Below are positions 4,425 to 25,281 of a stretch of DNA of 38,108 nucleotides, piece by piece (position 1 is the stretch's first letter; each line of letters opens with the position of its first letter). The stretch spans positions 1 through 38,108 of the IMG/VR virus record IMGVR_UViG_3300032287_002679. The stretch is one strand, 5' to 3'. Under the pieces are notes generated by a model. That model did no database searches. It had not been told where the DNA came from and saw nothing but the letters and a program-made list of their open reading frames with translations. The stretch is from a virus. Both the position numbers and the translations under genes were made by a program.

Positions 4425-5888
4425 ATGGTTAAAGAAGGTTATATTCCAAAAGATCAACGTAAAAAAATACTTCTTTTATGTGATGATATTAGAATGACAA
4501 GCGGTATCTCAACTATGGCAAGAGAGATTGTTATAGGTACCGCTCACCATTTTAATTGGATAAACGTAGGTGGAGCTATTTCACATCCTGATAAGGGTAA
4601 ACGTTTTGATTTAAGTGCAGATACAAATACAAATGCTAATATTGAAGACTCAAATGTGTTTCTCTATCCAACAGATGGGTATGGCAATCCTGAACTAATA
4701 AGACAACTTATTCAGATTGAAAAACCAGACGCACTAATGATGTTTACTGATCCAAGATATTGGGTTTGGTTATTTCAAATTGAGCATGAAATAAGAAAAC
4801 AAATACCTATTATTTATCTTAATATTTGGGATGATTTACCTTATCCAATGTATAATAAGTCATTTTATGAATCATGTGATGCATTATTTGCTATTTCAAA
4901 ACAAACAGAAAATATTAATCACTGTGTACTAGGACCTGAAATAGCAGCTGAGAAAGTAATTAAATATGTTCCTCACGGTATTAATGAGAAATTCTTCTTT
5001 CCTATTAATACTGAACATCCTGAGTATTTAGCATTACAAGAATTTAAAAAGCAATTATATAGTGATAAACAATATGATTTTAATCTACTATATAATGCTA
5101 GAAATATTCGCCGCAAATCAGTAGCTGATTTAATGTTGGCTTGGAAATTATTTATTGATACTTTACCAATAGAACAAGCTAAAAAATGTGTATTTACACT
5201 TCATACTCAGCCTATAGATGAAAACGGAACTGATTTATTTGCTGTAAAAGATATGCTGTTTGGAAGATATCCTCAGTATAATATTGTATTTTCAAATAAT
5301 AAGTATCCAAGTAATGTAATGAATCTACTCTATAACTCAGCAGATGTAGTAGCATTAGTTAGTAGTAATGAAGGATGGGGATTATCACTTACAGAAGCAA
5401 TGATATGTGGTAAACCAATTATAGCAACTGTAACTGGTGGTATGCAAGACCAAATGCGATTTGAAGATGAAGAGGGTAATTGGGTTAAATTCACAGAAGA
5501 ATTTGGTTCTAATCATAAAGGAAAATATAAAAAACATGGTAAATGGGCCTATCCAGTATTCCCATCTAATCATAGTCTTGTAGGTTCAATTCCAACACCT
5601 TATATATTTGATGATAGAGCTCAACCTGAAGATATAGCTGAACAAATATCTAGAGCATATTTTTGTAAGGAATATCATCCTGAAACTTATAAAGAAATAT
5701 GTAAAGTCGCTCACGAATGGGTCCATTCCGATGAATCAATGATGACAGCAGCTAATATGTGTAAGAACGTAATTGATGGAATTGAAGAGACATTTAAGAA
5801 ATGGGAACCAAGATATGCGTTTGAAATGATTAAAGTAGAACCATTAGAACAACCAAAACATTTTGTAAAACACGTTATCGCTAAATAA
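4425..5888 (+). CDS. GT-B glycosyltransferase (GT4-like)
   Basis: A 487-residue protein with a GT-B layout. The N-terminal Rossmann half begins KILLLCDDIRMTSGISTMAREI, with the glycine-containing acceptor-side loop. The C-terminal half has NARNIRRKSVADLMLAW and the donor-binding segment SSNEGWGLSLTEAMICGKPIIATVTGG, which corresponds to the GT4 E-x7-E region. It should transfer a sugar from a nucleotide donor; donor and acceptor are unknown. It begins a block of 13 genes, most of them sugar-related, and ends one base before a second GT-B gene. Confidence 0.88.
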   Translation: MVKEGYIPKDQRKKILLLCDDIRMTSGISTMAREIVIGTAHHFNWINVGGAISHPDKGKRFDLSADTNTNANIEDSNVFLYPTDGYGNPELIRQLIQIEKPDALMMFTDPRYWVWLFQIEHEIRKQIPIIYLNIWDDLPYPMYNKSFYESCDALFAISKQTENINHCVLGPEIAAEKVIKYVPHGINEKFFFPINTEHPEYLALQEFKKQLYSDKQYDFNLLYNARNIRRKSVADLMLAWKLFIDTLPIEQAKKCVFTLHTQPIDENGTDLFAVKDMLFGRYPQYNIVFSNNKYPSNVMNLLYNSADVVALVSSNEGWGLSLTEAMICGKPIIATVTGGMQDQMRFEDEEGNWVKFTEEFGSNHKGKYKKHGKWAYPVFPSNHSLVGSIPTPYIFDDRAQPEDIAEQISRAYFCKEYHPETYKEICKVAHEWVHSDESMMTAANMCKNVIDGIEETFKKWEPRYAFEMIKVEPLEQPKHFVKHVIAK

Positions 5889-5889
5889 T

Positions 5890-7185
5890 ATGAAACCTTT
5901 AATTTTTATAAGCTGCCCAATCGACACATACAGTGGTTATGGTGCTCGTTCAAGAGATATTGCTTTAGCAATTATCAAATCAGAAAAATATGATGTTAAA
6001 ATATTACCTCAAAGATGGGGAGCAACACCATTCGGTTTTTTGAAATCAAATAATCCTGATCATAAATTAATGATGGATTGTATTTGGAATAGTCCTCAAC
6101 TTCCAAAACAACCTGATTGTTGGATTCAAATTACTGTACCAAATGAATTTCAACCAATAGGTAAATTCAATATTGGTATAACAGCCGGTATCGAAACTAC
6201 AGTCTGTGCTCCACAATGGATTGAAGGTATTAACAGAATGAATTTAACATTAGTATCTTCAGCTCACGCTAAATTAGTATTTGAAAATAGTAAATTTGAA
6301 AGACGTAACTCACAAACACAACAAGTAGAAGGAGTAATTGAATTACAAACTCCTGTAGAAGTACTATTTGAAGGAGCAAATACAGAAATATATAAAAAAT
6401 TAGATAACGTTGAAGGTGAATTAAATGATATACTAAATGATATATCTGAAGAATTTAACTTCTTATTTGTAGGGCATTGGCTGCAGGGTGAGATAGGTCA
6501 AGATAGAAAAGATGTTGGTATGTTAATCAAAACATTTCTTGAAACATTTAAAGATAAAAAACCTAAACCAGGTCTTATACTTAAAGTATCTAGTGGGAAT
6601 TATTCTATAATGGATAGAGATGAAATACTAGATAAAATTAGAAAAATTGAAGAAGCAGTAGGTGGTAATTTACCAAGTATCTATTTAATTCATGGTGAAT
6701 TAAGTGATGAAGAAATGAATGAATTATATAATCATCCAAAAGTAAAAGCATCTGTTTCATTTACTAAAGGTGAAGGATATGGTCGTCCATTACTTGAAGC
6801 ATCAATAATAGGTAAACCTATTATTGCTTCTAATTATAGTGGTCATTTAGATTTTTTAGACCCAGAAATGTCAATTCTACTTCCAGGACAAATTACTCAA
6901 ATACATCCTTCAGCAGTAGTACAAGATATGCTTATAGCTGAGAGTGGGTGGTTTACTGTAGACTATGATAAGGCATCAAAAACACTTGAAGATGTTTATA
7001 AAAACTATAAAAAGTATATTGATGGGGCGAAAAAACAATCTTATCTTTCACGCACAGAATTTAGTTTAGAAAAAATGAGTGAAAAAATAGTTTCTATTTT
7101 AGAAGAAAAAGTACCTAAACCAGTACAACTTAAACTTCCTCAACTTAAAAAAATTGAATTACCTAAACTTAAAAAGGTAGAATAA
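5890..7185 (+). CDS. GT-B glycosyltransferase (GT4-like) with lysine/proline-rich tail
   Basis: A 431-residue protein. The N-terminus FISCPIDTYSGYGARSRDIALAI is a typical GT-B glycine-rich entry. The C-terminal donor domain has FTKGEGYGRPLLEASIIGKPIIASNYSGHLDFL, with the E-x7-E pair of GT4 enzymes. The last 30 residues carry an imperfect LPxLKK repeat (LKLPQLKKIELPKLKKVE), probably disordered and possibly a partner-binding tail. It abuts the previous gene by one base and overlaps the next by one base. Confidence 0.87.
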   Translation: MKPLIFISCPIDTYSGYGARSRDIALAIIKSEKYDVKILPQRWGATPFGFLKSNNPDHKLMMDCIWNSPQLPKQPDCWIQITVPNEFQPIGKFNIGITAGIETTVCAPQWIEGINRMNLTLVSSAHAKLVFENSKFERRNSQTQQVEGVIELQTPVEVLFEGANTEIYKKLDNVEGELNDILNDISEEFNFLFVGHWLQGEIGQDRKDVGMLIKTFLETFKDKKPKPGLILKVSSGNYSIMDRDEILDKIRKIEEAVGGNLPSIYLIHGELSDEEMNELYNHPKVKASVSFTKGEGYGRPLLEASIIGKPIIASNYSGHLDFLDPEMSILLPGQITQIHPSAVVQDMLIAESGWFTVDYDKASKTLEDVYKNYKKYIDGAKKQSYLSRTEFSLEKMSEKIVSILEEKVPKPVQLKLPQLKKIELPKLKKVE

Positions 7186-7580
7186 TGAAAGAACAACTTA
7201 CTATATGTCCTCGATGTAAAGGAAATGCATGCCATGCAGCGTCTAATGATAAAATAACTGTTTGGAGTTGTTTTGGATGTGGTTTCACATCCAATTCAAC
7301 CCTAACAGAAGATAAACTAGAAGTAACTGAATCTGTAATGCCTCAACTTTATATTGATCTTAAATTTAAAGACGAAAATGGTTATCATTGGTACCCATCA
7401 ACAGTAATTCTTGAAGACAGATCAATGGTATTTGCTGATGGTAGATCAACTGAAGATTGGAAATGGGCAGCTGTCCAATCTAAAGAAGGAAAAGCAGATA
7501 TGACTACATTACAGCAATTCGATGAAAAAGATTTTATGGAAGCTCTTGATTATATAGGATTCTTCCAAAAACAAAAATAA
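7185..7580 (+). CDS. Zinc-ribbon protein of unknown function
   Basis: A 131-residue protein with an N-terminal zinc ribbon, Cys8/Cys11 (CPRC) and Cys29/Cys32 (CFGC), then an unrecognised domain with YHWYPSTVILEDRSMVFADG. It sits between glycosyltransferase genes with 1- and 4-base junctions, so it is in the same operon, but nothing in it suggests a sugar enzyme. Similar short zinc-ribbon proteins are common in T4-like phages. Confidence 0.6.
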   Translation: MKEQLTICPRCKGNACHAASNDKITVWSCFGCGFTSNSTLTEDKLEVTESVMPQLYIDLKFKDENGYHWYPSTVILEDRSMVFADGRSTEDWKWAAVQSKEGKADMTTLQQFDEKDFMEALDYIGFFQKQK

Positions 7581-7584
7581 CGTT

Positions 7585-8196
7585 ATGTTAAGAATTAGTT
7601 ATGCTATCACTGTTCATAATGAACATGAAGAATTAGAACGTTTACTGAATCAGCTAGTAAATAATATTCGTTCTGAAGATGAAATAATAGTACAAATGGA
7701 TACTACTGCTACAGACAAAGTAGTATCTGTAATTAATAAGTATAATTTAACAAAGTATTACTATCCATTAAATAAAGATTTTGCAGCATTTAAAAATAAT
7801 CTAAGCAAACATTGTACTAAAGAATTCATATTCCAAATAGATGCAGATGAATATCCTCACCCACATTTACTAGAATCACTTCCTGAAATATTAGAATACA
7901 ACTATAATATAGATGTATTTCTAACTCCTAGAATAAACACAGTAGAAGGATTAACTGAACAGCATATTAAACAATGGGGTTGGGATGTTAATGAAAAAGG
8001 ATGGGTTAACTTTCCTGATTATCAATGGCGTATATGGAAAAATAATAGAAAAATTCAATGGATAAATAAAGTGCATGAGCGTTTAGATGGATTTAATGAA
8101 TATTCTGCTTTACCTCAAATGGAAGAATATTGTTTAATTCATCCTAAATCAATTGAAAGACAAGAAAAACAAAATAAATTTTATAATACATTATGA
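7585..8196 (+). CDS. GT-A glycosyltransferase (GT2-like), short
   Basis: A 203-residue protein starting LRISYAITVHNEHEELERLLNQL, the N-terminal nucleotide-binding fold of GT2 enzymes. FQIDADEYP supplies the DxD metal-binding motif, and a later WRIWKN...WINKVHERLDG segment resembles the acceptor end of small GT2 proteins such as those related to SPBc2-type sugar transferases. No membrane segment. It overlaps the downstream methyltransferase by 4 bases. Confidence 0.85.
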   Translation: MLRISYAITVHNEHEELERLLNQLVNNIRSEDEIIVQMDTTATDKVVSVINKYNLTKYYYPLNKDFAAFKNNLSKHCTKEFIFQIDADEYPHPHLLESLPEILEYNYNIDVFLTPRINTVEGLTEQHIKQWGWDVNEKGWVNFPDYQWRIWKNNRKIQWINKVHERLDGFNEYSALPQMEEYCLIHPKSIERQEKQNKFYNTL

Positions 8197-8711
8197 AGTT
8201 ACATTTAGGCTGTGGAACCAAACATATTAATGGATTTCAAAATATCGATATTCGCTACTTACCAGGGGTTGATGAAGTAAACAATATTAGATTTTTACGG
8301 AACTATAAAGAAAATTCAGTTGATGAAATATATGCTTGTCATGTTTTAGAACATTTTGGAAGATGGGAGTATAAAGAAGTATTAAAAAGATGGTTTGAAA
8401 TTCTAAAACCAGAAGGTAAATTACGGTTAGCTGTTCCTAATTTTAGCGCTATTTGTAGTTACTATATTAAAACAGGTAATTTAGAACCAATTATGGGTTT
8501 ATTATATGGAGGTCAAGATTATGATGAGAACTACCATTATGTTACTTTTGACTTTAATTCATTATCAAATGATTTAAGAAGTATAGGTTATAAAACAATA
8601 TTAGAATGGAATACCGAAGATTATTTAGGGGATGATTTTAGTAAATCATATCTACCACATATGGATAAAAACGGAATATTAATGAGTTTAAATATAGAAG
8701 CAATAAAATAA
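8193..8711 (+). CDS. SAM-dependent methyltransferase, class I
   Basis: A 172-residue protein with motif I KLHLGCGTKHINGFQNIDI at the very N-terminus, VDEIYACHVLEHF (motif IV region) and LKPEGKLRLAVPNF (post-motif). This is the predicted-SAM-dependent methyltransferase pattern common in capsule and LPS clusters, which probably methylates a sugar or glycan terminus. It overlaps both neighbours by 1-4 bases. Confidence 0.87.
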   Translation: MKLHLGCGTKHINGFQNIDIRYLPGVDEVNNIRFLRNYKENSVDEIYACHVLEHFGRWEYKEVLKRWFEILKPEGKLRLAVPNFSAICSYYIKTGNLEPIMGLLYGGQDYDENYHYVTFDFNSLSNDLRSIGYKTILEWNTEDYLGDDFSKSYLPHMDKNGILMSLNIEAIK

Positions 8712-9556
8712 TGTATATAAAATGTCATTATATGCCCGCAGAAATGTTTGATCACCATATGAATGGAGACAAATATCTAAAAAATAAATCTATTAGTTTA
8801 TTTAATGACTATCCTTGTTCACAAGATGATATAAACAAAAATCCATATAATTTTTTAATCCTATCAGAACCAAATGAATTATTTGGATTACACGATTGGG
8901 CTAAAATGAACTATCAAGTTTTTAGTTGTATATTGACCTGGAATGAAGATATTTTAAATTCATGTCCTAATTCAGTTTTATTACCATATGGTATGTCTAA
9001 TAGATATTGTAGATTTTGGGATGAAAAAGCTGTAATACCTAAGTTTAGATATCCTGAACCTATAAATGATAAAAAATTTAATGTATCATTTTTATGTGGT
9101 AAAAAACATTTAGTTGAAGGTCATTTTTTAAGACATAATATTTTTAATAACAACAGTAAAATTACTATACCTACTAACTTTATATACTCCACAGAAGATA
9201 AACACCCATGGAATAATGGTAAAGATGTATGTTGGGAGAGTATGTTCCATATTGGAGTCGAAAATACTAAACATAATAATTTCTTTACAGAAAAAATAAC
9301 AGATGCATTTTTAACTAAAACCTTTCCCATATACTGGGGTTGCCCTAACTTAGGAAATTATTTTAATATGGATGGTGTTCTTACATTTGAGACTGTAGAT
9401 GAATTGGTGTCAATTATTAATAATTTAACTCCTGAGTTTTATGAATCTAAAAAAGAAGTTATGGAAGAAAATTTTCAATTAGCATTACATTACGGGAATT
9501 ATCTTCCAAGAGTAGTAGATATAATAAAAGAAATATGTCAATTAAATAATATATGA
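8711..9556 (+). CDS. GT10-like (fucosyltransferase-type) glycosyltransferase
   Basis: A 281-residue protein. The C-terminal half has the GT10 donor-site signature: FHIGVENTKHNNFFTEK followed by ITDAFLTKTFPIYWGCPN, at about residues 178-215. This matches the FxxxxEN...TEK..DA....PIYWG pattern of alpha-1,3-fucosyltransferases. The N-terminal half is divergent. GT10 enzymes use GDP-fucose or related donors, though the actual donor here is unproved. Overlaps: 1 base upstream, 4 bases downstream. Confidence 0.82.
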   Translation: MYIKCHYMPAEMFDHHMNGDKYLKNKSISLFNDYPCSQDDINKNPYNFLILSEPNELFGLHDWAKMNYQVFSCILTWNEDILNSCPNSVLLPYGMSNRYCRFWDEKAVIPKFRYPEPINDKKFNVSFLCGKKHLVEGHFLRHNIFNNNSKITIPTNFIYSTEDKHPWNNGKDVCWESMFHIGVENTKHNNFFTEKITDAFLTKTFPIYWGCPNLGNYFNMDGVLTFETVDELVSIINNLTPEFYESKKEVMEENFQLALHYGNYLPRVVDIIKEICQLNNI

Positions 9557-10905
9557 TAAAATTAGTTATATTTGATTTAGATGGAGTGTTAGTAGAAGCA
9601 AAACAAATACACTATGATGCTTTGAATAAAGCATTAGGTAAAAAATATGCTATATCTTGGGATGAACATTTGTCTACATATGATGGTTTAAAAACAAATC
9701 AAAAATTAAATATGTTAACTGAACAAAAAGGATTACCTAGAGAAAATCATAATCAAGTATGGAATGATAAACAAAAATATACTTTAGAAGCTCTTCAACA
9801 ACTACAACCAAATCTAACTTTACAATCAACATTTAGTACTTTAGTAAAAGAAAGATATAAAATTGCAGTATGTTCAAATAGTATCCGTAGAACAGTATTA
9901 ATAGTATTATCTAAATTAGGTATTATTGAATTCATTGATCTTATATTATCAAATGAAGATGTAAAACATAGTAAACCTCACCCAGAAATGTATTGGAGTA
10001 CAATGAGTACAATAGGTGTATTACCTGAAGAAACTTTAATAGTTGAAGATAGTCCTTATGGGTTATTAGCTGCTAGTAGAAGTAGAGCTCATATAATGAG
10101 AGTTGGGTCTCCAAAAGAAGTTTCTTATATTAATATATCTAAACATTTAATTAAAGAAAAAATGAATAACATTCCTAAATGGAAAGATGAGAAACTAAAT
10201 GTACTAATACCAATGGCAGGGGCTGGAAGTAGATTTGAACAAGCTGGGTATACATTTCCTAAACCCTTGATTGATGTTAGAAATAAACCTATGATTCAAG
10301 TTGTCGTAGAAAATTTAAACATTGATGCTAACTTTATCTATATAGTCCAGAAAAAACATAGAGAAAAATATAATTTAGATACACTTTTAAATCTTATTAC
10401 TCCTGGGTGTAAAGTAGTGGAAGTAGACGAAGTAACTGAAGGAGCAGCATGTACTGCTTTATTAGCTAAAGAATATATTAATACAGACTCTCCATTATTC
10501 TTTGCCAATTCAGATCAATTTGTAGAATGGGATTCAAATGAATTCATGTATAAAATGAATGAGACAAATGCTGATGGAGGTATAGTCACATTTACAGCTA
10601 CACATCCAAAATGGTCATTTGCTAAAATAGATGAAAAAGGATTAGTGACTGAAGTAGCTGAAAAGAATCCAATTTCAGATATAGCAACTGTAGGCTATTA
10701 TTATTGGAAACACGGTTCTGATTTTATTAAATATGCAGAACAAATGATTGATAAAAATATTCGTGTAAATAATGAATTTTACGTTTGTCCTGTATTTAAT
10801 CAAGCAATTGAAGATAACAAACAAATCAGAACATTTAATGTTAAAGGAATGTGGGGGTTAGGAACTCCTGAAGATTTAAAAAACTATTTAGAAAATTATA
10901 AATAA
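9553..10905 (+). CDS. HAD phosphatase fused to sugar/polyol-phosphate nucleotidyltransferase
   Basis: A 450-residue two-domain enzyme. Residues 1 to about 200 are a HAD phosphatase: FDLDGVL with Asp8 and Asp10, CSNS (motif II), KPHPEMY (motif III lysine) and VEDSPYGLLAA (motif IV). Residues from about 214 are a nucleotidyltransferase: LIPMAGAGSRF (GxGxR-type NTP loop), FPKPLIDV, then FFANSDQFV (acidic metal site). Such an enzyme could prepare an activated sugar or polyol donor and remove a phosphate in the same pathway. It sits in the glycan block and probably feeds its glycosyltransferases; the substrate cannot be told. Confidence 0.88.
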   Translation: MIKLVIFDLDGVLVEAKQIHYDALNKALGKKYAISWDEHLSTYDGLKTNQKLNMLTEQKGLPRENHNQVWNDKQKYTLEALQQLQPNLTLQSTFSTLVKERYKIAVCSNSIRRTVLIVLSKLGIIEFIDLILSNEDVKHSKPHPEMYWSTMSTIGVLPEETLIVEDSPYGLLAASRSRAHIMRVGSPKEVSYINISKHLIKEKMNNIPKWKDEKLNVLIPMAGAGSRFEQAGYTFPKPLIDVRNKPMIQVVVENLNIDANFIYIVQKKHREKYNLDTLLNLITPGCKVVEVDEVTEGAACTALLAKEYINTDSPLFFANSDQFVEWDSNEFMYKMNETNADGGIVTFTATHPKWSFAKIDEKGLVTEVAEKNPISDIATVGYYYWKHGSDFIKYAEQMIDKNIRVNNEFYVCPVFNQAIEDNKQIRTFNVKGMWGLGTPEDLKNYLENYK

Positions 10906-10908
10906 ATT

Positions 10909-11595
10909 ATGGAAAATTTAAATTCATACCTACATATGCTGGATGCATCATATGCTATAGGAACAGGAAACCACCCAGAACACAATCCAAATCCTAAATA
11001 TTGGGATTTACTTTTAGGTGATATTAAAATTGCCCCTGAAAAGTGGGAAGGAAAAAAAGCTTTAGACTTCGGTTGTGGTCAAGGAAGAAATGTTACTAAT
11101 TTACTATCATTATCAAACTGGGAGAGAGTAGATGGTATAGATATAAGCGCAAGAAACATTGAATCATGTAAAAAGGAGTATGCAGATTTAAACTCAAATT
11201 TTTATAAAAACAATGGAAAAGATTTATCAGATCTAAATAATAATGAATATGATTTTGTTATGAGTACTATTGTATTTCAACATATATGTGTTCATGAATT
11301 AAGATATAAATTAAAAGAAGAAATATATCGAGTGTTAAAACCTAATGGATTATTTTCATTTCAAATGGGTTACGGTGATATCTCTTTTACAGGACATACT
11401 AAACCTAGAGATTATTTTGAGAATGGATATGATGCTGAAAATTCTAATGGAAGTAATGATGTTAGAGTGACTAACGCTGATTATCTAGTTCAAGATTTAA
11501 ATAAAATAGGATTTAAAGATGTAACATATTCGATAGAAGAACCATGGGAAGATACTGGTCATCCTAATTGGATATATGTTAAATGTTACAAATAA
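10909..11595 (+). CDS. SAM-dependent methyltransferase, class I
   Basis: A 228-residue protein. Motif I is ALDFGCGQGRN, followed by VDGIDIS (acidic end of strand 2), YDFVMSTIVFQHI (motif IV) and EIYRVLKPNGLFSFQMG. These are standard class I methyltransferase motifs of the Methyltransf_11/25 type. It is not closely similar to the smaller methyltransferase upstream in this block, so the two may modify different positions. It starts 3 bases after the HAD-nucleotidyltransferase. Confidence 0.87.
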   Translation: MENLNSYLHMLDASYAIGTGNHPEHNPNPKYWDLLLGDIKIAPEKWEGKKALDFGCGQGRNVTNLLSLSNWERVDGIDISARNIESCKKEYADLNSNFYKNNGKDLSDLNNNEYDFVMSTIVFQHICVHELRYKLKEEIYRVLKPNGLFSFQMGYGDISFTGHTKPRDYFENGYDAENSNGSNDVRVTNADYLVQDLNKIGFKDVTYSIEEPWEDTGHPNWIYVKCYK

Positions 11596-11603
11596 AAGTA
11601 TAA

Positions 11604-12464
11604 ATGAATACTTGTATATTTACTACTCACACTACTTTAGATTTAAAACACGCTGATTATAGTTTAAAAGCGTTATTGGCACTTCAAACTAATAATATAA
11701 TATGGGATAATTTTATTATTTATAACACTCATGGACATGAATTATCTAATAGTAATATTATTGATTTAATTGAAAAACATGATATTAAAAACTATGTTAA
11801 AGACATTTTAATATTTCCTTATGATCCTGAAACCAATAAAAAGAATTTACTACAGGATATAAGAAATTGGTTTGATATAGGATTATCTCTTAAACTACAA
11901 AATACACCAGGTAAAATACTTTGGCTAAAATCAGATTATTGTGTCTCAAATAATTTTAACAAAATATTTTTGGAACATAATATTCCTAATTGTATGTGGT
12001 CACTCCCAACATTAGGAGCAAAACAAAAAATTAGTTATGATCAAATTTTAACTAAATTAAATTTGTCTGAATTTACTCCATCTGATTTTGAAACATATTA
12101 TAGAGGAGGAGATAATTATAATAATGATTTACCTAATGGAGAAGTATCTCCTAATGGAGAAATGGATTATCATTCATCTATAAATTATGTCTCTCATAAT
12201 TACATTCATGATTTTAATTTACATGTTATATCTAATGATATTTTAGAGTTAGGTAGAGAAATAGCTTACCATCCTCAAGTATTTGATATGAACTCAACTT
12301 GGGGTGGACCTCATAATTTATTTTATGGATTGAAGCAAAATAGAGTACACTTTAGTGGTGAATATAGAGCTTATGGTATCCATATGTTTCACGAAATAAT
12401 TTCTGAAAATAGATTGGAAGATCGAGGAGATAATCGTAAATTACATATAGGGGAAAAATATTAA
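11604..12464 (+). CDS. Putative GT-A-like glycosyltransferase
   Basis: A 286-residue protein I cannot place in a named family. ILWLKSDYCVS, at about residues 109-119, looks like a GT-A DxD-type site (here SDY). The N-terminus (CIFTTHTTLDLKHADYSLKALLAL) resembles the start of GT-A sugar transferases. It contains the short repeat PNGEVSPNGEM. Context in the glycan block supports a sugar-transfer role, but this is inference. Confidence 0.55.
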   Translation: MNTCIFTTHTTLDLKHADYSLKALLALQTNNIIWDNFIIYNTHGHELSNSNIIDLIEKHDIKNYVKDILIFPYDPETNKKNLLQDIRNWFDIGLSLKLQNTPGKILWLKSDYCVSNNFNKIFLEHNIPNCMWSLPTLGAKQKISYDQILTKLNLSEFTPSDFETYYRGGDNYNNDLPNGEVSPNGEMDYHSSINYVSHNYIHDFNLHVISNDILELGREIAYHPQVFDMNSTWGGPHNLFYGLKQNRVHFSGEYRAYGIHMFHEIISENRLEDRGDNRKLHIGEKY

Positions 12465-12465
12465 A

Positions 12466-12900
12466 ATGATATATATTTCACATAGAGGAAACATAAATGG
12501 TAGGTTTGAATCGTATGAAAACGAGCCAAATTATATTGATAAAGCAATTGATGAGAGATTTGATGTTGAAGTTGATGTGTGGTACGTTGGTGGTGTATTT
12601 TATTTAGGGCATGATGCACCTATGTACGGATTAGACTTTGATTGGTTGAACAAAAGACGTTATCATTTGTGGATTCATTGTAAAAATACAGAAGCTCTTT
12701 CTTTTTTCAATTCAACAAAGTTTCATTACTTTTGGCATGAGAATGATACTGCTACTTTAACATCACAAGGATTTATATGGGCTTTTCCAGGAAAACAACC
12801 CATTAATGATAGTATAGCTGTGATGCCGGAAATACACAATGATGATGTTTCTAAATGTTTAGGAATTTGTAGTGATTATATTCAAAATTATAAAAAATGA
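12466..12900 (+). CDS. Glycerophosphodiester phosphodiesterase/PI-PLC-like protein
   Basis: A 144-residue protein. ISHRGNINGR followed by YIDKAIDERFDVEVDVWYVGGVFYLGHD matches the first catalytic strands of GDPD enzymes: the HRG motif, the ExD metal pair and a later GHD. Full GDPD barrels are about 240 residues, so this is a half-length version of a type I recall from capsule and LPS loci. It may cut or remodel a phosphodiester linkage in a glycan. It overlaps the next gene by 4 bases. Confidence 0.72.
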   Translation: MIYISHRGNINGRFESYENEPNYIDKAIDERFDVEVDVWYVGGVFYLGHDAPMYGLDFDWLNKRRYHLWIHCKNTEALSFFNSTKFHYFWHENDTATLTSQGFIWAFPGKQPINDSIAVMPEIHNDDVSKCLGICSDYIQNYKK

Positions 12901-13610
12901 AAATTGCTATTTGTATAAGTGGACAAGCTAGAAATTTTAAACAAAGCTATTTAGGTTTAAAAGAATATTTTTTAGATAAATATAATTGTGATGTATATTT
13001 TCATACTTGGAATTCTACTTATTTTGAATCAACTAATTTTGGATTTGGGAATACTAAATATTCTTTAACAGATAATGATTATAACAATCTTATTCAACTG
13101 TATCAACCTAAAAAATATGATATAGAAAAACCGATATTATTTGATGCTAGTGGTTATAAATGTCCTATTTGGAGACAACCACTAAATAATACTTTAAGTA
13201 TGTTTTACTCAATTTATAAGTCAATTCAATTGATTGAAGAAACATATGACTATGTTGTTAGAACAAGATTTGATATAGATTATTCTAAATTTAATTTGGA
13301 ATTTCCTCAAGAAGGTATTATATTACCTGAGTGGAATACAGATATTAGAGTTAAAAATAGAGGATATTATGATGTATTTGCTATAGGTAAACAACATGAT
13401 ATGAACATATACTCAGAAGTATTTTCAAATATTATATCTTACGTCACAAATGATGAACAATTTCTTAATTCCTTATCAGGAGGATGGCCAGGACAAGATT
13501 CACCATTAAGAAATGAATACTTATTAAAATGGCAACTAATAAAAAATAATACTAAAGTTAAAATAATACCTACATTAGAAGAAAAATCAGATGTTGGTTT
13601 AATTAGATAA
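12897..13610 (+). CDS. Putative glycosyltransferase (GT-A-like)
   Basis: A 237-residue protein beginning KIAICISGQARNFKQSYLGL and VYFHTWNST, a pattern seen in a family of uncharacterised LPS/capsule proteins. YVVRTRFDIDYS contains a DxD-type motif (DID) in a typical GT-A position. No membrane segment. Same operon as its neighbours. Confidence 0.62.
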   Translation: MKIAICISGQARNFKQSYLGLKEYFLDKYNCDVYFHTWNSTYFESTNFGFGNTKYSLTDNDYNNLIQLYQPKKYDIEKPILFDASGYKCPIWRQPLNNTLSMFYSIYKSIQLIEETYDYVVRTRFDIDYSKFNLEFPQEGIILPEWNTDIRVKNRGYYDVFAIGKQHDMNIYSEVFSNIISYVTNDEQFLNSLSGGWPGQDSPLRNEYLLKWQLIKNNTKVKIIPTLEEKSDVGLIR

Positions 13611-13611
13611 T

Positions 13612-14523
13612 ATGAAAGGAGTTATAACTATATTTGCTTTACCTCAAGAATTAGAAGATTTAGCTTTAACACTATATAATCTAAAAAGAAATTCTATTTA
13701 CTTAGATAATTCAATTAAATATAAAGTAGATATCACTATGTGTTTATCTGATGAATTAACTAATTGGAATGAAACTAAATTGCCCAAAGAATATATTAAA
13801 GAAAGAACTGAGGAATTAGTGACTAAATTCTTAGACTGGTGTGAATGGAAATTAATGTGGAGTGAAGAAAATATATTGGGGTGTGTATCCCAAAGAAGAT
13901 ATAGTCTAAATAATAACCCAGATGTTGATTTTTTTATATGGTTAGATTGTGATTTTATATTTAAAGACACTACTTTAAGTTACATGATATCCGCTTACCA
14001 AACAATAAAAGAATCAAATATTGATATGTTTATACTTACTCCTCAATTTGTAAGACAATGGGATACATCATGGGATATATTAGTCAATAAAAACTTTTTA
14101 AATCACCCATTATATTACCATGAATCATCAGATGTTTATATTGATACTCTTCATCAAATAGATGAAATCAAACTTAAACAAATTAATGATATTAAATTTG
14201 CAGGAGGATGGTTTACATTAATATCAAGTAAATTACTTCAAAAAACAACTATTCCGGAGTCATTAGGACACTATGGGTTAGAAGATAATTTTGTTATAGA
14301 ATGTTCTAAAATATTAAAACATAAAGGAGAAAACATATCTCAATTTATATTAGAAGAACTTGTTATTGGTGAAAGTTATATTCATAGACCAAATGAGACT
14401 ATTAAAAAATACATATCCAATATAAATAAAAAAGATGAGTTTACTAAAATAGCTCATAGTAATTTTCCAATAGAAATTAAAAAATTTTATGAAAGAAGTA
14501 ACAGTAGTACTTACAGCTTGTAA
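13612..14523 (+). CDS. Putative GT2-like glycosyltransferase
   Basis: A 303-residue protein. FFIWLDCDFIF gives a clear DxD motif after a GT-A-like N-terminal half, and GGWFTLISSKLL followed by HYGLEDNFVIECS resembles the acceptor-side GG...ED motif of GT2 enzymes. Its 3' end overlaps the next gene by 35 bases, the longest overlap in this block. Confidence 0.7.
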   Translation: MKGVITIFALPQELEDLALTLYNLKRNSIYLDNSIKYKVDITMCLSDELTNWNETKLPKEYIKERTEELVTKFLDWCEWKLMWSEENILGCVSQRRYSLNNNPDVDFFIWLDCDFIFKDTTLSYMISAYQTIKESNIDMFILTPQFVRQWDTSWDILVNKNFLNHPLYYHESSDVYIDTLHQIDEIKLKQINDIKFAGGWFTLISSKLLQKTTIPESLGHYGLEDNFVIECSKILKHKGENISQFILEELVIGESYIHRPNETIKKYISNINKKDEFTKIAHSNFPIEIKKFYERSNSSTYSL

Positions 14524-15178
14524 TAGAGCAGATTTATTAGAAAAAACATTGGATAGCTTTTTTAAAATGAATACATATCCAATTAAAAGATTTATTATTA
14601 TAGATGATGGAATGAATTTTGGTTGTAATGATTTTGTAAAAATAAAATATGAATTTCCAATAGAATTAATATATAATAATCCTAAATTATTTCAAATAAA
14701 ATCTATAGATAAAGCATACTCTCTAGTAGATACTGAATATATATTTCACATGGAAGAAGATTGGGAATTTATCAAACCAGAATTTATTGAAGATTCTTTA
14801 GCTGTATTAGAAGCTGATCCAAATATATTACAAATATGGCTAAGAGGAATAGATGATACAACATTACCCCACCCCTGGTATCCTGACGTGTATGAAGTTA
14901 ATCAGAAACAACTAGTAATGAATCATCAAACAGAAATGTGGGGAGGAATTAGCTTTAATCCAGGGTTAAATAGATTAAATGATTGGAAATCATTTCCTGA
15001 AGGATATAATGGATGTGAAAGAATAACACCTGCTGAACAAAGTGGTGGAGTAACACTTGAATGTGATGTGTCAGTCGAATATATAAAAAGAGGAAGAATA
15101 ACTATGAGATTCATTGAATCTTATGTAAGACATATAGGATGGGGAAGACATATAGTTGATGGAATTAATGGTAAATAA
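14489..15178 (+). CDS. GT2-like glycosyltransferase
   Basis: A 229-residue protein starting TVVLTACNRADLLEKTLDSFF, the classical GT2 opening, with FIIIDDG (nucleotide-binding acidic pair) and FHMEEDWEF (metal-binding acidic cluster in place of a simple DxD). The chosen ATG lies inside the previous gene, because the GT2 fold needs the residues from the start. The C-terminus includes FIESYVRHIGWGRH. Confidence 0.8.
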   Translation: MKEVTVVLTACNRADLLEKTLDSFFKMNTYPIKRFIIIDDGMNFGCNDFVKIKYEFPIELIYNNPKLFQIKSIDKAYSLVDTEYIFHMEEDWEFIKPEFIEDSLAVLEADPNILQIWLRGIDDTTLPHPWYPDVYEVNQKQLVMNHQTEMWGGISFNPGLNRLNDWKSFPEGYNGCERITPAEQSGGVTLECDVSVEYIKRGRITMRFIESYVRHIGWGRHIVDGINGK

Positions 15179-15183
15179 AAAAT

Positions 15184-16335
15184 ATGTATAAATTATCTGA
15201 TATATCAATTGTAATACCAAGTTATAATAATTTGGAATATTTAAAACTAGTTTATAAATCAATTAGAGACATATCTGAAGATATTGAATTGATTTTGTAT
15301 GATGATAGTAGTAGTGATGGTACTAAAGAATGGCTTCTAAGATTGAAAAATAAAGAAAATGATATAATTAAAATTTTTGATAGTAAAGTTGGTCATCCTG
15401 TCTTATATGATATGGGATTTAATCTAACTAAAAGAAAAATTATAGGAATCATGCATGCTGATATGATTGCACATAAAGATTTCTTTACTAATATATTAAA
15501 ACATATTAATTCTAATACTATTGTGTGTGGAATCTGTGCTGAACCTCCAATTCATCCTCCTGGAAATGAAAAATATATCTTGGATGCTGGTTTTTATCCT
15601 GAAGAATTTAACTTATCTATTTTTAATAATTTTTATGAAACTTTAAATAAAAATGAAATTAATAATGGAATATTTGCTCCTTGGTTTTTATTAAAAGAAG
15701 ATTATATTAAACTTTTGGGAAAACATGATACTTCATTTTTTTACTGTGAAGATGTTGATATATTTAATAGAATAGTAGTAGCAGGTTTAAATATAATACA
15801 AAGTAGGGATGCACTAGTATATCATTTTACTCAACGAGGTCATAAATTTGAAAAAGGAATTATAGGAAATATCCAACATGATTATCAAGATAGAGTTAAT
15901 AAAGATACAAGAAATTACATAAGAAAGTGGGGAAGTTTATATAAATTTAATACAGACCATCGCCCTATCCCTTCAGTAAAATATAATATTGGTTTTGTAG
16001 TGAATAATTGTAATATACAATTACTTGAAATATTAGAACCATGGTGTGATAATATTTACGTTGGTTGCGAAGTAGATTCATATATTGTTAAGGAACAATC
16101 TAATACTAAATTTAATTTAAAAGATAGAATTAGAATGGTTAGTGATAAAGATAAACCAAATGATATAATAATTGAATTTGACGCTACTAAATTAAACCAA
16201 AATAATTTTCAACTATTACAACAATTTCCTGAAATTATATCAGAATCGGGAGAAATAGGTGAATTTGAATTAGATATTTTTAATATTAAAATTAATAATA
16301 TTAAAACATATGAGCATAATTTAATATATTTATAA
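15184..16335 (+). CDS. GT2 glycosyltransferase with extra C-terminal domain
   Basis: A 383-residue protein. Residues 1 to about 240 are a GT2 domain: SIVIPSYNNLEYLKLVYKSI, YDDSSSDGT, IGIMHADMIAH (DxD equivalent HAD) and FFYCEDVDIFNR (ED catalytic-base motif). The last 120 residues (from about SVKYNIGFVV) are a separate alpha/beta region I do not recognise. It is the last gene of the glycan block; ClpP follows after 11 bases. Confidence 0.85.
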   Translation: MYKLSDISIVIPSYNNLEYLKLVYKSIRDISEDIELILYDDSSSDGTKEWLLRLKNKENDIIKIFDSKVGHPVLYDMGFNLTKRKIIGIMHADMIAHKDFFTNILKHINSNTIVCGICAEPPIHPPGNEKYILDAGFYPEEFNLSIFNNFYETLNKNEINNGIFAPWFLLKEDYIKLLGKHDTSFFYCEDVDIFNRIVVAGLNIIQSRDALVYHFTQRGHKFEKGIIGNIQHDYQDRVNKDTRNYIRKWGSLYKFNTDHRPIPSVKYNIGFVVNNCNIQLLEILEPWCDNIYVGCEVDSYIVKEQSNTKFNLKDRIRMVSDKDKPNDIIIEFDATKLNQNNFQLLQQFPEIISESGEIGEFELDIFNIKINNIKTYEHNLIYL

Positions 16336-16346
16336 GAAACTAGTTT

Positions 16347-16886
16347 ATGTCTTATTCTCGTCGTTCTAAACTTGATCCACTTAGCAGAATTATTACTTTA
16401 GGAGACATTAATGGAGATTATATTAATGATATTATTCAATTAATATATGAAATTAATGAAGAAGATATTAAAAAAACACAAACAGAACCAATAAAACTAA
16501 TAGTTAATTCATTTGGAGGAGAATTATATAGTGGACTTGCCTTAATAGATATAATTGATAACTCAAAAACTCCAATTTATACTATATGTCACGGCTCAGC
16601 TATGTCGATGGGATTAATAGTATATGTTGCGGGTCATTATAGAACAGCAAGTAAATATTCAACATTTATGTATCATGAAGCCTCGTATTCTATAGAAGGA
16701 AAAGTAGTATACCATAAACAAGAATTAAATGAGACAGAACGAATTGATAGTATATGTGATGATTATTTAATATCTAAAACTAAATTATCTAAAAAACAAT
16801 TAAATAAAATTAAAAACAACCAGTCTGATTGGTATTTTGATGCTAAAACAGCATTAGAATATGGGATAATAGACAAAATTGTGTAA
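16347..16886 (+). CDS. clpP: ClpP-family serine protease
   Basis: A 179-residue ClpP-like peptidase. The catalytic serine is Ser87 in GSAMSMG, the histidine is His110 in MYHEAS, and the aspartate is Asp161 in SDWYFDAKTALEYGIID, which aligns with the Asp of the E. coli triad. The oxyanion-side motif reads NSFGG instead of NSPGG. ClpP forms 14-subunit barrels fed by ClpX or ClpA. T4 and other phages use ClpP-like folds as prohead proteases, but the complete triad and position among non-structural genes favour a Clp-type peptidase. No ClpX is visible, so host ClpX is the likely partner. Confidence 0.9.
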   Translation: MSYSRRSKLDPLSRIITLGDINGDYINDIIQLIYEINEEDIKKTQTEPIKLIVNSFGGELYSGLALIDIIDNSKTPIYTICHGSAMSMGLIVYVAGHYRTASKYSTFMYHEASYSIEGKVVYHKQELNETERIDSICDDYLISKTKLSKKQLNKIKNNQSDWYFDAKTALEYGIIDKIV

Positions 16887-21125: not shown

Positions 21126-21199
21126 AGTCAGGTGGTGCAATTAGTTAGCACGGGTGGGTTAATAACTGCTAGACACAGGTTCGATTCCTGTCCTGACTA
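21126..21199 (+). tRNA. tRNA with irregular anticodon arm (identity unclear)
   Basis: Acceptor AGTCAGG/CCTGACT is perfect, D stem GTGC/GCAC is perfect, T stem ACAGG/CCTGT with loop TTCGATT is perfect, discriminator A. The middle does not give a normal anticodon arm. The best pairing is GGTGG with CTGCT (G-T, G-C, T-G, G-T, G-C), leaving an 8-base loop GTTAATAA. A 7-base-loop drawing would put TAA as anticodon but leaves three mismatches, and leucine tRNAs need a long variable arm. Asn (GTT) with a degraded stem is another reading. It may be a decayed or frameshifting tRNA. Confidence 0.65.
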
Positions 21200-21212
21200 C
21201 TAAAATAAAATC

Positions 21213-24536: not shown

Positions 24537-24851
24537 ATGGCGTGTCACTGTTTATCCTTAAAAGACCAAAATGAATTTTATAGTTTACTCAAAACCCGAG
24601 ATTCAGATTTGATTGTAAAAATGGTAAGATGTGTTATCAGTGCTGCTAAACGTAATAAATCAAGTATTGATATATTTGATATAACGTTTAAAAACTTAGA
24701 TTCATTAGTGTTTACTATTGAAAAAAGCCAATATAAAGAATTACTTTCTAATTGTTTAGATGATCTTATAGCAATAGAAGAATATGAATTATGTGCTGAG
24801 ATTAAAAAAATATTAGAAAGTAAAAGTAAAAAGAAAAAAGAAGCTCTTTGA
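24537..24851 (+). CDS. Hypothetical helical protein upstream of tmRNA
   Basis: A 104-residue helical protein. The C-terminus LDDLIAIEEYELCAEIKKILESK resembles a UVR-like helix (EEYELCAEIK), similar to the tail of the 99-residue protein downstream of ClpP. It ends in a lysine-rich tail (KSKKKKEAL). It starts 26 bases after the oversized tRNA-like RNA and stops 5 bases before the tmRNA, so all three may share one transcript. Confidence 0.6.
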   Translation: MACHCLSLKDQNEFYSLLKTRDSDLIVKMVRCVISAAKRNKSSIDIFDITFKNLDSLVFTIEKSQYKELLSNCLDDLIAIEEYELCAEIKKILESKSKKKKEAL

Positions 24852-24856
24852 AATAT

Positions 24857-25231
24857 GGGGCATACCGGTATTGATTCGGAAATGAAGGTAATACTACATG
24901 CAGACAAAGTGAGAATGTCTTAAAATACTTACAAAACAATAAACGCTGAAGAATTATCTTCATTCACCTTCGAAGATGCTATGGCTTTCGTTGGTGCTGA
25001 TTACGCAGTAGCTGCCTAATCACTCCCGCACACATCGTGGGATTTAAAAAGAATGTGAAATTGGGCGGTGTTTTTGGTTCAAGCCTACTTAATAGGAACC
25101 GACCGTAGTTGAGAGTGATAATGGAAAAATAGAAACTCTATATTTACTTATTGTGAATAATAAGATAAGCATGTGAGACGTTAGTATTATTGTTCTTTGC
25201 GAAGACCTGGGTTCGAATCCCAGATGCTCCA
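24857..25231 (+). ncRNA. ssrA: tmRNA (transfer-messenger RNA) with long tag frame
   Basis: The RNA rescues stalled ribosomes by acting first as tRNA-Ala and then as mRNA for a degradation tag. Acceptor GGGGCAT/ATGCTCC includes the G3-U70 pair required by alanyl-tRNA synthetase; discriminator A; T arm CTGGG-TTCGAAT-CCCAG. ACATGC near the 5' end (24896-24901) pairs with GCATGT (25169-25174) in TAAGCATGT, a segment shared with E. coli tmRNA (helix 2). The tag frame most likely resumes at GCT (24945), preceded by A at -4, and ends at TAA (25017-25019). It encodes 24 residues starting AEELSSF and ending ADYAVAA, close to the usual YALAA degron. Flanking pseudoknot-like pairings follow the tag. Confidence 0.93.
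24945..25019 (+). other. tmRNA tag reading frame, 24 codons plus stop
   Basis: It reads AEELSSFTFEDAM, then AFVGADYAVAA, then TAA. The in-frame stop upstream is at 24921-24923, so up to 31 codons are open. GCT is the best resume codon by analogy with GCN resume codons and the conserved A four bases before. Typical bacterial tags are 8-15 residues, so this one is unusually long. The acidic, hydrophobic start differs from the E. coli ANDENYALAA tag, but the last residues are degron-like. Confidence 0.82.
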
Positions 25232-25281
25232 CTAAATCTTTTATATTTATTGGTAGTTTATCACCATTAAAAATAAAAGAT

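Follow-up and report, generated by a model that had tools for sequence, protein, structure and literature searches.

Why should a phage encode a tmRNA whose tag is so much longer than the tags of its likely hosts? This question is raised by a stretch of viral DNA of 38,108 bases (the window), a fragment of a T4-like phage with 29.6% G+C, a T4-type clamp loader and a run of tRNA genes. An earlier note had proposed a tmRNA at 24857-25231, and the covariance model bears out this identity: Rfam RF00023 matches positions 24857-25234 over the full length of the model (1-374), with a score of 73.1 bits (E 9.7e-27), the gathering threshold being 47, and ARAGORN concurs in calling a one-piece tmRNA (ssrA) of standard form at 24857..25232 on the plus strand. 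The proposed start stands, and the end is shifted slightly (25231/25232). The G3-U70 acceptor and the T arm of the earlier note are both present, on the same strand. First, the 5′ strand of the acceptor stem, GGGGCAT (24857..24863), which carries G3 of the G3-U70 alanine identity pair, pairs at 7/7 positions with the 3′ strand, ATGCTCC (25224..25230), which carries U70. Second, the T arm CTGGG-TTCGAAT-CCCAG (25207..25223), recognized from the sequence, from Rfam and from family comparison, is paired at 5/5 positions. The encoded 3′ end reads A-C-T-A, and CCA is absent from it. Inspection places the pseudoknot 1 region directly 5′ of the resume codon (24900..24932, plus strand), with GACA/TGTC and GTGAG/CTTAC as its probable stems.

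The length of the tag depends on where translation resumes. The open frame that follows pseudoknot 1, AEELSSFTFEDAMAFVGADYAVAA, occupies 24945..25019 on the plus strand according to both ARAGORN and frame inspection, and runs from a GCT resume codon at 24945 through 24 codons (24945-25016) to a TAA stop (25017-25019). Because the choice of resume codon determines this length, we compared host tmRNAs. In Bacteroidota chromosomal tmRNAs the resume context is, for example, GAACAATAACT before GGC, and the contexts in the phage family are CAAACAATAACT before GAC, GAAACAATAACT before GTA, or AAAACAATAAAC before GCT; the last is that of the window, with AAC as its -1 triplet (24942..24944, plus strand), a context that the host tmRNAs share. 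As this re-entry context is common to host and phage tmRNAs, the start of the tag is well fixed. The claim of a 24-residue tag that begins at GCT and ends in ADYAVAA is thus upheld on independent grounds, and frame inspection agrees that up to 31 codons are open. We found neither a resume codon elsewhere giving a short tag nor a failure of the covariance search, the two outcomes that the earlier note had named as counting against it.

The hosts are likely to be Bacteroidota. Among the 80 best cellular matches of the smpB gene of a related phage (G009, described below), almost all are from Bacteroidota; a few carry the label Chlorobiota, and a single contig carries that of Rokubacteria. Shine-Dalgarno sequences are scarce in the phage genes (11 of 178 in the related genome G001 and 1 of 44 in the window), which fits such hosts; counts of Bacteroidota-type promoters in the window and G001 were not above those in shuffled sequences. 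In two dozen tmRNAs of Bacteroidota and Chlorobiota the tags have 9-10 residues (GENNYALAA, GNTSYAMAA and similar), and beside these the tag of 24 residues is indeed long, as the earlier note had held for bacterial tags in general. A tag of 26 residues called by ARAGORN in a Lentimicrobiaceae bacterium (L289) is a miscall, the true frame being an ordinary GNNSDYALAA.

Is the long tag peculiar to this phage? Relatives were fetched through the gene immediately upstream (24537-24851), with no reference to the tag, and nearly all of those retrieved carry a tmRNA just 3′ of that gene. Comparison of their tags by pN/pS and by pattern search delimits a conserved, phage-specific module of 14 codons, SSFTFEDAMAFVGA (24957..24998, plus strand), with the family consensus STMTF(E/D)DxM(A/S)FVGA. 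A peptide-level search pattern, FxDxM(A/S/T)FVGA, matches 99 viral stretches, 74 of them inside tmRNAs called by ARAGORN, and in essentially all of these stretches the frame continues to a tag-like ending. In a genome collection that spans 84,980 species of bacteria and archaea no contig fits this pattern, and neither does any of 296 Bacteroidota genomes. The family comprises 72 distinct tag DNA sequences encoding 48 peptides, all of 23-26 residues save two of 20. On sequence grounds, the window tag is a member of a phage-specific tag family spread across dozens of related uncultured phages, a kinship that the earlier note had not recognized. A search for a paralogue of the tag among the phage proteins gave nothing above the level of shuffled tags, the tag has no match in Pfam or PHROGs, and a tblastn search covering 50,697 phage records as well as 72,556 plasmids returned nothing, a query of 24 residues being at the edge of the sensitivity of that search.

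The module appears to be kept for the peptide that it encodes. The set retrieved through the neighbouring gene, and not through the tag, contains 23 unique cores of 14 codons; their pN/pS is 0.26 when they are read in the tag frame versus 1.77 in the +2 frame, and variation is highest at the third codon position. When 21 tmRNAs are aligned, the mean pairwise identity of the module (0.79) is close to that of the T arm and acceptor (0.80), with 0.49 in PK1 and 0.23 in the region of PK2-4. This pattern of substitution indicates that the module is evolving as protein, under purifying selection, and because the extra segment is so selected, some sequence-specific function for it is likely; the earlier note had suggested that a long tag could alter the choice of protease or carry a function of its own. 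One could suppose instead that this is an ordinary phage tmRNA in which only rescue and the YAVAA end matter, the added length being a spacer or a neutral variant. Such a view would accommodate the match between the tail of the window tag and host tails, the long tags of unrelated phages (25 residues in mycobacteriophage ET08) and the variation of tag length among bacteria (PMC11915505). A spacer should drift, however, and the module is instead constrained as protein and better conserved than the greater part of the RNA; we therefore regard this explanation as unlikely.

The tail behaves differently from the module. In the window it is DYAVAA (24999..25016, plus strand), a host-like degron by comparison with host tags (which end in NYALAA or SYAMAA), and across the family it varies among DYAVAA, DYALAA, NEYALAA, DEYAYAA, DEATFA and DLALAA with the module in front of it kept. 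The tags that end in DEATFA (L097, L122, L125, L126) have an unchanged module and no YA(L/V)AA; in the L017/L162 tmRNA (near 5320-5710 of L017), which scores above the Rfam cut-off, the module is kept and the tag ends in DYE and a stop, with no ALAA degron. These two endings, like the persistence of the module beside a varying degron, could be taken as signs of a module that diverts tagged proteins or protects them, by reducing their capture by host proteases, by acting as a Clp inhibitor or decoy, or by serving as a bioactive peptide in host takeover. Most members, though, retain a host-type YA(L/V)AA end, for which a tag meant to escape degradation would have no use, and we consider diversion improbable.

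Two further explanations can be dealt with briefly. That translation resumes downstream and adds only the seven residues ADYAVAA, the upstream frame being non-coding RNA, is very improbable: ARAGORN does call tags of 7-8 residues in L003, L007, L012 and others, but we rejected these calls, as the same loci keep an open VELSTMTF... or DEMSTMTF... frame directly after a host-like resume context, and the in-frame pN/pS given above is that of a coding sequence under constraint. That the gene is a captured relic without function is scarcely credible, since a few damaged copies do exist (L006, otherwise near-identical to L005, is without the tag tail and the following segment, through a genuine deletion or an error of assembly) but all 64 family members checked that have both tmRNA ends keep every acceptor and T-arm pair through many compensatory changes.

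In those 64 members the acceptor is paired at 7/7 positions through 11 different stems, with G3-U70 in all, and the T arm at 5/5 positions through 16 different stems. Judged by this covariation, the tRNA-like domain is clearly maintained across the family, which argues for a working tmRNA. We favour, with confidence that is evenly balanced, the reading in which this working phage tmRNA combines a host-type degradation ending with a second, phage-specific and probably helical signal. Following the known tmRNA pathway, the RNA would be charged with alanine by the host AlaRS through G3-U70, would be bound by host SmpB and would enter ribosomes stalled during infection; translation would resume at GCT 24945, adding Ala and AEELSSFTFEDAMAFVGADYAVAA to the unfinished protein, and the DYAVAA tail would keep the host-type ending read by Clp-family unfoldases. 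Host SmpB is presumed because no SmpB gene was found in the records of 11 of 12 relatives. The conserved module (ELSTMTFEDLMAFVGA in the family consensus) might then act as a second element for recognition, specific to the phages and with a predicted helix that begins after the invariant Thr, and it could make tagged proteins better or differently handled substrates. A single-sequence AlphaFold model of 31 residues predicted, with limited confidence, a helix over the tag residues FEDAMAFVGADYAVA, and the invariant Thr, which is followed three positions later by an acidic residue, resembles a helix cap. The module might be read by ClpXP of the host, by an adaptor of the phage, or by a Clp protease that has the phage ClpP as a component, and the likely benefit would be ribosome recycling and the recovery of amino acids during infection.

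This two-signal reading is favoured because the module is selected as protein and kept while the tail varies, and because 26 of 31 full-length neighbour loci have a ClpP-like gene, 3-5 kb before the tmRNA, although these phages possess a gp21 head protease besides (the distance is 3-8 kb across most close relatives). In the window this gene, which the earlier note had not mentioned, lies about 8 kb 5′ of the tmRNA (16347..16886, plus strand) and matches PF00574 with 94 bits against a cut-off of 20.2 and PDB ClpP chains at E 1.6e-14; Ser, His and Asp align at the catalytic positions, which places it in the Clp family. As it falls far below the NCBIfam cut-offs for true ClpP equivalogs, however, we describe it only as a divergent ClpP-like serine protease. 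Ser and His are conserved in the phage ClpP family, and the third position is Asp in the window copy and Glu in most relatives. A role in head maturation is unlikely for it, most of these genomes having a separate protease of the T4 gp21 type. Of the 17 records searched, 8 contain the gene, every one of G000-G006 among them; the co-occurrence of tag and ClpP is, however, inflated by the shared ancestry of the loci. Moreover, ClpP is not required for the tag, since G007 (181 kb) and G344 (174 kb) have the tag and no ClpP was found in them; G344 was the sole long record tested with a tag of the DEATFA type. The two-signal reading is weakened by the divergence of the phage ClpP, with its score below the equivalog cut-offs and mostly Glu at the third catalytic position, and by the L017/L162 tag, in which the module is followed by an ending without ALAA. 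A more specific proposal sees in the module a phage-specific signal for docking, by which tagged proteins are delivered to a phage-remodelled Clp protease containing the phage ClpP; it is offered tentatively, as a possibility that we doubt.

The conserved gene of 104 aa that directly precedes the tmRNA in almost every close relative (24537..24851, plus strand) yields a confident predicted model (pLDDT 91); a search of the PDB with it gave nothing at E 0.001 or better, the best VIA-align Z being a middling 5.5; its best BFVD matches are uncharacterised phage proteins, and a UVR motif suggested by eye receives no support from Pfam. An RNase H-like gene (PF04308; 23359..23820, plus strand) lies in the same block, and a relative of it abuts smpB in phage G009. 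Elsewhere in the window we observed a tRNA-like gene with an irregular anticodon loop (21126-21200; a two-base anticodon according to ARAGORN, 48 bits in Rfam), glycosyltransferase-like, nucleotidyltransferase/HAD and methyltransferase-like genes beside replication genes (4425-16335), and a GIY-YIG homing-type endonuclease with NUMOD domains (1912-2652).

A sister lineage of T4-like phages has a different tag of 20 residues, GNVYNNMEVAGLLATSKVAA. Its representative G009 (loci L053, L077, L196 and L327) carries, together with this tmRNA, its own SmpB, which lies at L077 1492-1932 and scores 164 bits against the SmpB equivalog, as well as an AAA+ ATPase of ClpC-like type that is apparently split over two frames (L327 1198-3215); no ClpP was found in the records of this lineage that were searched. 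Components of the trans-translation and Clp route seem to recur among the phages of this group. The docking proposal would count the SmpB and ClpC-like ATPase of G009 as parts of one system, which is again possible but doubtful; if true, it would amount to a viral takeover of the whole route of trans-translation and proteolysis. Also in these phages, CTA-anticodon tRNA genes that ARAGORN labels Pyl occur at L053 7060-7134 and L059 6596-6668; they are possibly amber suppressors, and TAG may be reassigned in that lineage.

In these phages the tag itself, and not only the rescue function, has been under selection. As the tag is selected across a widespread phage family, the gain to a phage from its own tmRNA should be testable by changing 14 codons, and if the module recruits a protease or an adaptor, it would provide a new portable degron for Bacteroidota.

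How does this tmRNA compare with those already known? By every feature tested the gene is a tmRNA, and as far as sequence comparison reaches, its conserved tag module is new. The chromosomal tmRNA of Bacteroidota shares with it the one-piece form, G3-U70, the resume context and the type of tail, whereas the host tag has 9-10 residues, mostly with a Gly start, and is without the ELSTMTF(E/D)DxMxFVGA module. A long tag extended for protease recognition has a precedent in Mesoplasma florum, where the ssrA tag, of the long mycoplasma type, has about 27 residues and is recognized by Lon; that tag is bacterial and of different sequence. Tags of other viral tmRNAs range in length, with 13 residues in Bacillus phage G and 31 (ANMQVVHNILNGIDELSVKSDTVIGELELAA) in a tmRNA called by ARAGORN on an unrelated viral contig (L070 4160-4540). 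The earlier note had cited Bxz1 as a phage with a tag of about 25 residues and a different end, and the tag of mycobacteriophage ET08 (species Bixzunavirus Bxz1), ATDTDATVTDAEIEAFFAEEAAALV, does have 25 residues and ends in ALV. This tmRNA is likewise phage-encoded, lies in a tRNA cluster and has a tag of similar length, but it belongs to another host phylum, is another RNA and differs in its tag end; the two tags show no significant similarity (p 0.06-0.48 on shuffling, 0.11 for the mean score). No paper describing the window tag family was found in a partial coverage of the literature. Tags of 10 residues are the commonest in a database that covers 97,179 tmRNAs (PMC11915505); because its viruses come from RefSeq, it is unlikely to include uncultured phages such as these. 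Phage tmRNAs as such are already known (PMC4131195), with 402 phages in one report, which also describes a two-piece tmRNA in the marine phages Melnitz (PMC9004378), and huge phages carry tmRNA together with SmpB (PMC7162821). Like the phages studied here, these bear parts of trans-translation; the Melnitz tmRNA is, however, permuted, the huge phages are another group, and the available portions of those reports do not describe long conserved tags such as the one that characterizes this family.
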